Source: Prasinococcaceae sp. CCMP 1430 (lineage: Eukaryota > Prasinodermophyta > Palmophyllophyceae > Prasinococcales > Prasinococcaceae). From it: DNA of 41,053 nt. The position numbers and the translations under genes were made by a program. Where the stretch lies: assembly GCA_013416795.1 (NCBI GenBank), contig RQSC01001001.1:2501-43553 (forward strand). Direction: 5' to 3'. The notes under the pieces were generated by a model that saw only the letters and a program-made list of their open reading frames with translations, was not told the DNA's origin and searched no databases. Shown here one piece after another: positions 1,401 through 33,995 of this stretch (within the stretch, counting starts at the first letter, position 1; each line of letters opens with the position of its first letter).

Positions 1401-3518
1401 CTACGGGGTGCTGCCACCGTTGCCGTTGTTGGAAACGACGAGCGACGCAAGCGCAACGACGTCCTCGGTGGTGATCGAGCCGTCACCGGTCATGTCACCG
1501 GCAGACGTGATGCATGGCGACTCCACGATGCCGCTGATGACCGCGTTCTGCAGCACCGTGAGGTCGGCGACGTTCACGTTGCCGTCGTTGTTGACGTCGC
1601 CGGAGCCGTCTGCCGCGCACGCGTCCGCCTGGACCGCGGAGCAAATCTCGTCCGCCTGAGGACAGCAGTCGCCGACGATCGCGCACACGACGGCGTCGCA
1701 GCCGCAGCCGTTGGAGGTGTACGCGCCGCAGTCGGCAGCCTCGCACGCGGGCGGGTCGGCGGGGCACTCATTGACATCCGCCAGCGCCGGCGAGGTCTTG
1801 TACATGTCGCAGCTGGCAGGGTCGGTGGCGGTGTTGCACGAGCCGTCGCCGTCCCTCTCGGTGGCCGCGTCCCCGACCTTGTACATCGAGGTGGAGCCCG
1901 TGATGGCGTTGGCGACGATGAGCATGTCGGCGCAGATGGGCGAGACGGCGGCCGGCACGAAGACCATGCTCTCGGGACCCACGTCCAGCGAGTTCAACGT
2001 GAAGTTGTTCGCCTCGACCTGATCGGCGATGTTCGTGTCGCCGAAGTTCCGGCGGTTGATGAAGTCGTTGAAGACGGGCGCCGTCGGGTCGGTCATGTCG
2101 TACGTCATGATGCCGCTCACGCGCTCGAGGGCAATGAAGACGACGGTCTTGCCGCTGGAGAGCTTGCCGACGGTCGCGGCTTCGGGCTCGGGCCCCTTGT
2201 CGTCGGAGCGGTCGTCGAAGTTGTTCTCGTCGTCGTTGGAGTTGAAGAACTCCGAGTTCACCGAGGCGGTCTTCTCCTCGAAGGCCGACCCGCTGTCGTA
2301 CACGAGCTCGAGGCCGTCGGGGTTGGCCTGGAAGACGGAGAAGGAGCGGCTGCCGAACGCGGTGATGGTGGAGCACTCCAGGTTGCCGCTGTCGTCGAAC
2401 TCCGCAGGGTACGCGTTGGTCACTGCGAGGCGGCCGAGCTTCGCGTTGTCGCGGATCAGCGCGTCCGTCGGGCAGTTGGTGGTCAGATCGCCCAGCCTCA
2501 CCTCCTCGCTGAAATCGTCCTCGTCGCGCGAGCTTCCCTCGTTGGCCGTGATGATGTAGTCCACGCCGTTGAGCGAGAGGAACGCCACGCCGTCGGGCTG
2601 GTTCATGAGCGTCACGTTGACGCCGTCCCAGCTCCCAGCGATGTTGATGCCGCCGTCCTCGTCGGACGGGTCCATGACAGCGGTCGGGTACGCGAGCCCG
2701 TCGACGTAGGTGAAGGTGCGCGACGCCATGTCGAAGGCAGCGCCGGCGTTGTTGTCCTGCAGGACGATGTAGAGGGTCTGGCCGTCGTCGGAGAACGCGC
2801 TGCCCTCAGGCTCGAGGTCCGCGGACGGGTTGTTGGCGTTGGGTCCGAAGAGGCGCACGCCCCGGGCGAGGAGCTCCTCCGTGGTGAATCCGTCGAAGGT
2901 GTAGGTCTCGGCGGCGATCACGTTCACCGAGGCCACTGGCTCGGTGGTGATCTCCACGTCGACGATGGTCACGCCGCCCACGGGATCCTCGTTGTTCGGG
3001 TTGAAGTCGAAGGAACCTTCGTTGACGCACGCCACCGCGGTCTTGTTGCCGTTGATGCTGATGGCCTCCGGATGCGAGCCGGCGTCGGCCGAGGCGAGGA
3101 GGAGGCCCGTGATGGGGTCGATGAACGCGAGCTTGCCATCAGCCTGGACCGGGTCGGCCCGGACGGCGGCGACGATGACGCCATCGGCGGCGACGACGCC
3201 CTGCACGCTCTCGCCGGTGAAGCCGGGATCGGCCGCCTGAACGAGCGAGATGACGTCGATGGACCGGACCTTTTGCGGGTTGGTGGGATCGACGAGCGTG
3301 ATCACGTCCACGAGCCCGCTGTTCGCGTTCGTCACGTACGCGTTGCGCGTCGCGGTGTCGTACGCGACCTGCTCGGCGGCATCCTCGTCGTACACGCCGC
3401 TCTCGTAGGTGCCGATCCACTGCAGCTGCGTGAATTGCGCGGCGGCGACGCTGGCCGCCGCCGCGAGCGCCGCCGCGACGAGCATCGACGCGCTCGCCGC
3501 GCGCGAGCGCGCCGCCAT
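1401..3518 (-). CDS. Secreted MSP130-like (choice-of-anchor I) protein with dockerin-like C-terminus
   Basis: A 705-residue intronless secreted protein. I start it at the ATG at 3518 because it gives a clean signal peptide (basic MAARSR, then LVAAALAAAASVAAAQ). An in-frame ATG at 3545 is the alternative; the open frame reaches further up but looks non-coding. The mature protein opens with WIGTYESGVYDEDAAEQVAY, typical of the choice-of-anchor I beta-propeller domain of bacteria, which is homologous to the sea urchin biomineralisation glycoprotein MSP130. Acidic Asp/Asn-rich loops run through it. Then comes a Cys-rich segment (about residues 575-635), and from residue 640 two dockerin type I-like calcium repeats, DVNNDGNVNVADL and DMTGDGSITTEDV. 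It probably acts at the cell surface or extracellular matrix. The domain is mostly bacterial, so ancient transfer is plausible. No catalytic function is claimed. Confidence 0.85.
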   Translation of the reverse strand: MAARSRAASASMLVAAALAAAASVAAAQFTQLQWIGTYESGVYDEDAAEQVAYDTATRNAYVTNANSGLVDVITLVDPTNPQKVRSIDVISLVQAADPGFTGESVQGVVAADGVIVAAVRADPVQADGKLAFIDPITGLLLASADAGSHPEAISINGNKTAVACVNEGSFDFNPNNEDPVGGVTIVDVEITTEPVASVNVIAAETYTFDGFTTEELLARGVRLFGPNANNPSADLEPEGSAFSDDGQTLYIVLQDNNAGAAFDMASRTFTYVDGLAYPTAVMDPSDEDGGINIAGSWDGVNVTLMNQPDGVAFLSLNGVDYIITANEGSSRDEDDFSEEVRLGDLTTNCPTDALIRDNAKLGRLAVTNAYPAEFDDSGNLECSTITAFGSRSFSVFQANPDGLELVYDSGSAFEEKTASVNSEFFNSNDDENNFDDRSDDKGPEPEAATVGKLSSGKTVVFIALERVSGIMTYDMTDPTAPVFNDFINRRNFGDTNIADQVEANNFTLNSLDVGPESMVFVPAAVSPICADMLIVANAITGSTSMYKVGDAATERDGDGSCNTATDPASCDMYKTSPALADVNECPADPPACEAADCGAYTSNGCGCDAVVCAIVGDCCPQADEICSAVQADACAADGSGDVNNDGNVNVADLTVLQNAVISGIVESPCITSAGDMTGDGSITTEDVVALASLVVSNNGNGGSTP

Positions 3519-4381
3519 CGCGATCGATCGACCCCGGGCGTACATTCGCCGCTCGCTCTGTGGCGCCGCCCCTGCGCGCGCCGCGCGTGCGCGCTCGATC
3601 CGGCAGCGGCATCGGATCCACGTGCACACTTTTCGTTGCCAGACGTGGCATTTGATGGCGCACGATCGCAGTGGCGGCCCCAAAAATCGGTTGCCGCGTG
3701 GCGCGAATGAGGGCATCTTTGAGCATCTGCCCGCATGCCGTGTGAACGCCCCCAGGCGCAGCAAGTGCCAGAAGACACGCTTCGTATCTGGCGCGAGCAG
3801 GAGCTTCCATCACAAGGCGCTACGATGTGATAGAGTACTCACGAGGTGCACCAACGTTGAAAGGGTGACAGGTAGAGTCTAACATGGCACCGCCAGGCGC
3901 TGGCTCCAGCTCATTGTCCGTGCTTCCGAGGGAGGACCACCCGAGCGCAGGGTGCTCCTCCGTCCTCGGAGTGCTCCGAGTAGGTGCGTCTCACGCGCTG
4001 TGCGGGGCCGCCCGTCCGTGCCGCCGGGCGTGGCCTCACCACGCGTGCCGAGCGTGGTCACCACGCTCGCCAAGCATCTGGGAGGGCTGAGGACCGCGCC
4101 GACCTCCTCGGCGAACCCTCGACGCCGGCGGTCGTGATTTGACCGGGTTCGGGTCAGACGTCAGGGTGTGTTGGAATGTGAATGTGCACGTGTTCAATGC
4201 ATCGCGTTGTAAAATGTCGGAAAAGATCACATGTAACCACGGGATACTCATGTAAGGCGTTCGGTAGCGCATCATCAAAACGAAAGCAAACGGGGGAAAG
4301 ACAAAGAAGGCGTTGCCGCTGGCAGGTGCCACAGCGTGCGCACGCGGCGAGGGGTGCGCCCCCCCCCCTTTGCTTCCCCNG
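3519..4381. other. Intergenic/5' region between divergent genes
   Basis: No recognisable gene. It should hold the promoter of the MSP130-like gene, including the recurrent motif GCATTTGATGGCG at 3649-3660, and the 5' region of the HEAT-repeat gene. Bases 4140-4310 are relatively AT-rich. At 4358-4381 a pyrimidine tract ends in an undetermined base (N at 4380) followed by G. Confidence 0.5.
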
Positions 4382-11924: not shown

Positions 11925-11988
11925 GCATGCGCTCTTTCGAGCAGCGGCCCCCATGTGTGGGTTTCGGCTACTGCTGTCATGTGCGTGC
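11925..11988 (-). promoter_or_regulatory. Candidate type II SECIS element
   Basis: In the 3' region of the selenoprotein transcript, about 140 bases past its TAG stop. Read on the minus strand: AUGA (11980-11977), then a 5' strand CAGCAGUAGCC, unpaired AAA, a mini-stem CCCA/UGGG capped by CACA, a 3' strand GGCCGCUGCU, then CGAA (11939-11936). The AUGA and CGAA supply the tandem G-A pairs of the SECIS quartet. Helix II has nine Watson-Crick or G-U pairs with one A-C mismatch. There are 12 bases from AUGA to the apical AAA, as in known SECIS elements. A lower helix GCACGCAC/GCGCAUGC (two mismatches) flanks it. The base opposite the quartet end is C rather than the usual G or U. Confidence 0.8.
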
Positions 11989-12119: not shown

Positions 12120-12979
12120 CTAGAGCAGCGCAGCGGCGGCGGTTGCAGCGAGCGCGCCGACCGCGGACGCGCGCACGCGAACGAGCATGCGCCCGGCGCC
12201 GCTGCTGGCTCCATCCGTGTCATCACTGCCATCATCGCCTTCGGCGCGCGCGGGCGCGTCCGATGAAGGTGGGGTCGCATCATCCTGTGCCGGCGGAGGG
12301 GGACTGGCGCTGCCAACACCAGCCAGTGCGGCCTCGATTGCCTGCACCGGCGCGTGCGCGCATGTGTGAGTACGCACGCGCGCGTGCAGGTCTGCCAACA
12401 CACGCTGGCGCTTGCGAGGGTCCGTGCGAGCGAACTCACCTCGTCGAGCAGGCCCGGCGTCGTTTCAGACCTGAATTTCGTGACGATTTCCTCGACCTCA
12501 CCGGCAGGTGTAATCACGACGAAGCGTGGGCGGCTCGATGTGAACCACGTCGAGCCCAGGTTCTCGGTGTCGCGGAGCGTGGCGATGGCGGTGTTGGCCC
12601 CGCCAGAGTATGTGGGCCATGCGTCGCAATCGCTGCTGCTCGTTGTCCAGAGGAGCGTCGCAAAGCGCACGCGGTCGCCGTACTTGGTTTTGGCGTCGCT
12701 GGCATACTCGTCGAAAAGTGGCGCTGCGGCCCTGCACGAACCTCAGTTTACGAAGCTCTTGTCAAGCACGAGCACGTTGCCGTCGCCGAGCAGGCTCTCA
12801 ATGGATGCCTCATCAGCGCCGCCCGCGGCTGCGGCGCCGTCGCACACGGAGAAGCTGCGAACGAGCACGTCCTGCGTGAGCGCGTCGCCGGCGCCGAACG
12901 GTGCCTGCGCGCGCGCGGCCGGCGCGAGCGCGAGCGCCAGGGTGGCGGCGAGCGCACTCGCCACGGTGCGGCGCCTCAT
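12120..12979 (-). CDS. Thioredoxin-fold selenoprotein (UGSC motif), anchored and secreted
   Basis: Exons 12979-12440 and 12341-12120; the intron 12439-12342 is GT-AG, phase 0. The protein has 253 residues if TGA 12745-12743 (codon 79) is read as selenocysteine. The frame is the same before and after this TGA. The motif is DKSFVN-U-GSC-RAAAPLF: U79 and C82 occupy the CxxC site of a thioredoxin, preceded by a beta strand (NVLVLDKSF) and followed by a helix, KYGDRVRFATLLW and RPRFVVITPAGEVEEIV with the cis-Pro. ATG 12979 starts a signal peptide (MRRRTVASALAATLALALAP). Exon 2 is an acidic Ser/Pro linker ending in a hydrophobic stretch (VGALAATAAAALL), which suggests a GPI or membrane anchor. Extra cysteines are C46 and the one in SSSDCDAW. 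Likely role: oxidoreductase of the secretory pathway or cell surface. A standard gene finder would stop it at residue 78. Confidence 0.85.
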
Positions 12980-33407: not shown

Positions 33408-33995
33408 TCACTTATCCCGGAAGTCGACCGGCGGCAGGTGCTCGAAGCCCGTCCAGTCCTTGGGCACGTCTAGGCCGGTATCTTCCTGCAGGCACTCAAG
33501 GATGGTGGAGGCGGGCAGCATGCCCTCCGTGCGTGTGCTCGCACGGTACTTGTCGGGAGGGACGAAGACCACTGTTGGTAGCTCATCGATCTCCAGGTCG
33601 TCGGCGAGGCGTTTCTCCTCCTCGACGTTCACCTTGACGAAAGTGGTCGCCTTGCCGAGAGCGATTGCCATGCGCTCGACGGTGCGGCCGAGCACCTTGC
33701 ATGGTCCACACCAGTCGGCATAGAAGACGATGACGAGCGGCACCCCTTCTGGCGCGTGCGCGGCCAGGATGGCGGCTTCGAGCTCTTTGGTGTTCACCTT
33801 GGCGACGCGCGCCGAGGGATCGGGGGTAAAGTGTGGCGCGCGCGCAGTGCTGTCGGCGGCGCCGGCCTGCAACGTGCGGCCGGGGGTGGGGCGGCAAGAG
33901 TCGCGCGCACGTCAGCGGCGCGCCCGCGCGCGAATGTGCACGCGCGCGCACATGTGCGCGCGCACACGCACCGTGTTGGCCGCCTTGCGCGCCAT
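33408..33995 (-). CDS. Thioredoxin with C-terminal extension
   Basis: Main exon 33866-33408 encodes the thioredoxin: VIVFYADWCGPCKVLGRT with the redox-active WCGPC, TTFVKVNVEEEKRLADDL, and ELPTVVFVPPDK with the cis-Pro. After the fold, a 30-residue tail ends EHLPPVDFRDK. The frame above 33866 has no ATG before TGA 33912-33914, and CACGTTGCAG just upstream is a good splice acceptor. The nearest consistent first exon is 33995-33972 (MARKAANT, donor GTGCGT), giving a 105-base phase 0 intron and a 161-residue protein. That exon is tentative. With it the protein would be cytosolic; with a longer upstream exon it could carry a targeting peptide. General protein disulfide reductase. Confidence 0.85.

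Follow-up and report, generated by a model that had tools for sequence, protein, structure and literature searches.

On the minus strand of the window (the whole 41,053-nucleotide stretch of DNA that was analysed), two predicted exons encode a 253-residue product with selenocysteine (Sec79) and Cys82 in the motif U-G-S-C. We put at about 0.93 the probability that this is a selenoprotein of the thioredoxin superfamily, in which the UGA at codon 79 is recoded to Sec by way of a SECIS element and which acts as a secreted, probably membrane-held thiol-disulfide oxidoreductase. The gene is genuine and very likely functional. The Sec reading was decided by a paralogue with a homologous TGA together with a Cys-containing relative, by SECIS-like elements, by the SepSecS gene and the known selenoproteins of the genome, and by a TGA that takes the place of the catalytic Cys in a thioredoxin-type motif.

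The open reading frame begins at an ATG (12979) with a signal-peptide-like sequence (MRRRTVASALAATLALALAPAARAQA) and runs for 78 residues to a TGA (12745-12743), which is codon 79. Past the TGA, the frame stays open through another 101 codons and reaches a GT splice donor just after 12440. The first-pass annotation had described a signal-peptide ORF that ends at this TGA while the same frame continues. It had the frame right, but its coordinates reached only to the TGA, and it missed the intron, the second exon, the SECIS-like element, and the paralogue. Exon 1 (12440-12979, minus strand), which is supported by homology to the two relatives and by GC content by codon position, would encode residues 1-180 with the TGA read through. 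These comprise a predicted signal peptide (residues 1 to about 26) and a thioredoxin-like domain, with Sec79 (12743-12745) as the first residue of U-G-S-C and Cys82 (12734-12736) as the last. A predicted phase 0 intron of 98 nt follows (12342-12439, minus strand). We infer this splice because there is a GTGAGT donor and a TGCAG acceptor and because the spliced C-terminus (LLDE joined to AIEAALAGVGSASPPPP) is like that of the paralogue (LLGEVAAEVRAARGEAVAATPPPP). Exon 2 (12120-12341, minus strand) would encode the last helix, a Pro/Asp/Ser-rich linker, and a hydrophobic C-terminal tail (GASSGAGRMLVRVRASAVGALAATAAAALL), and it ends with a TAG stop (12122-12120). From its sequence, the tail looks like a GPI-anchor or membrane-anchor signal. 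There is no further stop or frame break within the 253-codon model.

The open frame by itself proves little. The two strands of the window together contain 907 TGA triplets with enough flanking sequence. Of these, 163 (18%) precede a run of 101 or more open in-frame codons, and for 19 of them an ATG-started frame of 78 codons or more is also open upstream. Thus, an open frame of this length is not beyond chance in GC-rich DNA, and the TGA might be a true stop, with the gene encoding a 78-residue secreted peptide or being a nonsense-mutated pseudogene. The case must therefore rest on other evidence. The observations that do exceed chance are the SECIS element and a homology that extends across the TGA, both to a paralogue and to a Cys form.

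A search of the organism's own genome (24.5 Mb, 145 contigs) identified two relatives of the window gene. (We will refer to the product of the window gene as P0001 and to the products of the relatives, L002 and L003, as P0002 and P0003.) L002, on contig C51, has one TGA (E = 3e-13, genome-wide), and L003, on contig C81, has none (E = 1e-6). The part of the window protein after the TGA is, taken alone, similar to L002 (E = 2.8e-13, 33% identity over 91 residues). In the same comparison, the part before the TGA gave E = 5e-4, and the other two frames after the TGA gave nothing significant. The TGA of L002 (L002:1648-1650) falls on the codon that is homologous to codon 79, within a UGHC motif, while L003 has Cys in that column, within a CNPG motif. 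Exchange of Sec and Cys at one column among related genes is classical evidence for Sec, and a UGA that aligns with Sec or Cys in homologues is what is expected of a eukaryotic selenoprotein. The first-pass annotation had placed the TGA at the first Cys of a CxxC motif and had proposed a search for homologues with TGA or a Cys codon at position 79; both kinds exist in this genome. Its conclusion that the gene encodes a selenocysteine enzyme, which it tied to conservation downstream of the TGA, is supported by both relatives, by SECIS-like elements in both TGA-containing genes, and by a genome that uses Sec. The downstream frame is specifically homologous to L002, the relatives have TGA or Cys at the same catalytic codon, the model is otherwise unbroken, and its 3' UTR has a SECIS-like element; on these grounds, we consider a true stop very unlikely.

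The residues that are invariant across the window protein, L002, and L003 include C46, U/C79, R83, A86-P87, C118, F146, P151, and G160. Outside of the shared domain the relatives vary. The tail of the paralogue (L002:2090-2298) is Lys-rich and contains Cys (KSRKKKSRKTKKSKK...CKGLKKKACSKGDAKRHCKYKKKRGCAPR), and it is not hydrophobic as in the window gene. The Cys form (G000:C81:93717-97160) carries an additional, fused region of the beta-propeller/NHL-like type. The closest matches to that region are secreted propeller proteins of bacteria (MAGs of Nannocystaceae and other proteobacteria), which do not have the thioredoxin-like domain. With P0003 as the query, only bacterial beta-propeller proteins without this domain were retrieved. 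We found no homologue of the thioredoxin-like domain in viral contigs (queries A2, P0001, and P0002), in contigs of prokaryote genomes (A2 and P0003), or in phage records (P0002).

A second alternative is that the TGA lies inside a small intron, for which a 20-nt GT...AG stretch (GTAAACTGAGGTTCGTGCAG) around the TGA is a candidate, or that it is an assembly error for TGC or TGT, so that the protein is a Cys enzyme. We rejected the 20-nt intron because its removal would shift the frame and would delete residues that are conserved between the window protein and L002. Also, the local DNA of L002 differs and yet has the same TGA, and SECIS-like elements are found at both loci. We regard a hidden intron or an assembly error as highly improbable.

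A SECIS-like hairpin (AUGA..AA..CGA; 11926-11987, minus strand) starts 140 nt past the TAG stop, in the 3' UTR. It has ATGA at 11980-11977, an unpaired AA at 11964-11963, and CGA at 11935-11933, and its small apical stem is form-2 like. The Rfam model SECIS_1 matches 11987-11926 over its full length (1-64), with the AUGA, the unpaired AA, and the CGA in register. The score of this match (16.7 bits) is below the gathering score of 35, and so are the scores of the three best SECIS_1 matches in the genome (18.6-20.6 bits), which lie downstream of the TGA-containing GPX genes L019 and L020 and of a DsbA-like gene with an in-frame TGA (L017).

As the 3' arms of the SECIS elements of this genome are out of register in a sequence alignment, we relied on a scanner with an empirical background. 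Its strict criteria are AUGA, AA 11-14 nt further on, NGA, and a stable helix 2. The site downstream of our gene is the scanner's sole match on both strands of the 41-kb window. Across 416 kb (the window and the examined loci), there were 12 matches: this site, a candidate in the 3' UTR of L002, four sites downstream of known selenoprotein genes, and six others. When the 420-nt 3' UTRs were shuffled so as to preserve dinucleotides, the scanner found a match in 5 of 1000 shuffles for the window gene (about 0.5%) and in 4 of 1000 for L002. Rfam gave no match to the L002 candidate. Fold energy would not make a strong case on its own, as the z score is −1.89 for the 81-nt core and near zero (−0.05) for 106 nt.

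The genome encodes SepSecS (E = 4e-112, model positions 1-386). We did not detect tRNA-Sec, selD, or a clear eEFSec in the genome assembly; the assembly may be incomplete, or the search may have been too insensitive. It could be proposed that UGA is reassigned or leaky throughout this organism, so that the residue inserted is something other than Sec. In the examined GPX, DsbA, and PDI genes and in the two examined members of the present family, though, the in-frame TGA coincides with the position at which the catalytic Cys or Sec is known or predicted, and an internal TGA is absent from most other genes for thioredoxin domains. SECIS-like elements downstream of several TGA-containing genes, and the presence of SepSecS, argue further against general reassignment, which we find barely credible.

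Several other genes in this genome have a TGA of this kind. In six GPX genes (L019, L020, L021, L022, L024, and L025), the catalytic codon is TGA; SECIS-like elements are clear for L019, L020, and L025, and L022 has only a weak candidate, in which CC replaces AA. The DsbA-like gene (L017, minus strand, G000:C82 at about 812 kb) has its in-frame TGA in the sequence FVTCTQUPHGYIGKL (CTQUPHG) and a strong SECIS-like element downstream, which marks it as another selenoprotein gene. Also, the product of L040 (G000:C73:667439-667636) is a single-domain PDI that resembles EhSEP2 and has UGHC as its active site (APWUGHCKAMKP).

Alone, P0001 matches thioredoxin models weakly (Pfam PF00085, E = 0.082; TrxC model, E = 0.004). 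P0002 fits PF00085 better (E = 3e-4), and a profile of the three sequences retrieves PDI chains (E = 4e-10), a match that comes mainly from the active-site region. These matches place the family within the thioredoxin superfamily. Among the thioredoxin domains of the genome that were compared, the nearest to P0001 are L002 (E = 7e-16) and L003 (E = 9e-9). From Sec/Cys79 to the presumed cis-Pro there are 72 residues in P0001 and 72-76 across all three proteins. Classical thioredoxins have about 44 residues between the active site and the cis-Pro, and a long spacing is similar to that of TlpA/AhpC-type folds. A single-sequence AlphaFold model of the window protein had a mean pLDDT of 45 and was unusable.

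We propose that SECIS-dependent recoding inserts Sec79 and that the protein then enters the secretory pathway, where the hydrophobic C-terminus probably holds it at a membrane. Sec79 would be the nucleophile that attacks a substrate disulfide (or a peroxide), and Cys82 would be the resolving thiol that resolves the selenenylsulfide. With this pair of residues in the UGSC site, the most likely activity is thiol-disulfide exchange of a PDI-like or TlpA-like kind, and it would take place at the cell surface or in the lumen of the secretory pathway; peroxidase activity is the less likely alternative. The invariant C46 and C118 may form a structural or regulatory disulfide.

The gene is a well-supported addition to the selenoproteins of an algal genome, and one that is easily missed; standard annotation would cut it short at 78 residues. 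A set of related genes with Sec, Sec, and Cys in one organism should be useful for asking why one site keeps Sec while another has it exchanged for Cys. If the C-terminal anchor is real, then a phytoplankton cell would have this selenoenzyme on its surface or in its secretory lumen, in a setting where selenium supply varies.

We also noted some unrelated features of the window and the genome. A second thioredoxin-domain gene in the window (33486-33803, minus strand; Pfam E = 1e-15) has the Cys form WCGPC. A secreted-looking ORF of 787 residues (1401-3764, minus strand) has dockerin-like repeats at its end (DVNNDGNVNVADLTVLQNAVISG..., DMTGDGSITTEDVVALASLVV), which is unusual in an alga. Another contig (G000:C136, 477 kb; L056 and L057) has two different green-type rbcL genes, one of which adjoins genes for NADH-dehydrogenase-like subunits. 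We take an rbcL protein from this contig to be of the green-plant type, which points to a plastid of the green lineage. The contig may not be clean, and it could have been pieced together from organelle DNA of more than one kind.

How does the window protein relate to known selenoproteins? In a survey of 137 algae, 42 selenoprotein families were recorded, among them PDI_a-e, TlpA, and UGSC (PMC7539508). EhSEP2, from Emiliania huxleyi, is a PDI-like selenoprotein that consists of one domain and has UGHC as its active site (PMC6254913). The window protein is like EhSEP2 and PDI_a-e in that its one thioredoxin-like domain has Sec where the first active-site Cys would be, and its paralogue also has UGHC. 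However, the same genome contains a separate and much closer EhSEP2-like gene, L040, which P0001 matches at only E = 0.008 over 46 residues, so we did not assign P0001 to the EhSEP2 type. P0001 is closer to L002 and L003, and it differs from the PDI type in its spacing (72 residues versus about 44) and in its hydrophobic C-terminal tail.

The window protein resembles the TlpA/AhpC type in the length of the segment that separates its active site from a strand motif of the form PxxxxxxxxG (RPRFVVITPAGEV). The AhpC, Redoxin, and TlpA models of Pfam and NCBIfam gave no match at E up to 10. The Sec-containing TlpA of algae has been reported with a hemerythrin domain (PMC7539508), which the window protein lacks, a comparison that we made by description.

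The first-pass annotation had called this a new-looking UGSC selenoprotein. We would avoid that name because "UGSC-containing protein" already denotes another selenoprotein family, known from marine prokaryotes (PMC2398784) and listed in algae (PMC7539508). The two share the four-letter motif, UxxC, and a probable thioredoxin-like fold. The GSC is not conserved in the window family, as the paralogue has UGHC, and in a comparison by description the shared letters look coincidental. Pfam and NCBIfam gave no match to the UGSC family at E up to 10, although these libraries may contain no model of it.

Another candidate for kinship is the N-terminal domain of SELENOP, which also has UxxC in a thioredoxin-like domain. 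The profile of the three relatives is colinear with it over 106 columns, but hhalign against a hand-entered human SELENOP sequence gave a probability of only 13%. When compared with shuffles, P0001 alone did no better, and only P0003 was slightly above them, which at most hints at kinship. SelP_N (PF04592) gave no Pfam match at E up to 10 to any of the three, and canonical thioredoxins and PDIs outscore SELENOP in the profile comparison, but most of these alignments span only some 30-45 columns around the active site. The window protein also lacks the His-rich or multi-Sec C-terminus of SELENOP. That P0001, L002, and L003 form an undescribed algal selenoprotein family, a secreted and membrane-anchored domain that is a distant cousin of the SELENOP N-terminal domain, is a long shot. 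If it were so, then a domain that the literature treats as animal-specific would have originated before animals; SELENOP has been called restricted to multicellular organisms (PMC7539508).

Overall, "new-looking" is borne out only in part: the collections searched contained no homologue from outside this genome, but UxxC thioredoxin-like selenoproteins are already known in algae, and the window gene is of that kind. With PDI_a-e, TlpA, and UGSC compared by description only, the subfamily of P0001, L002, and L003 may be new, and it differs from the EhSEP2-type PDI that is encoded in the same genome.
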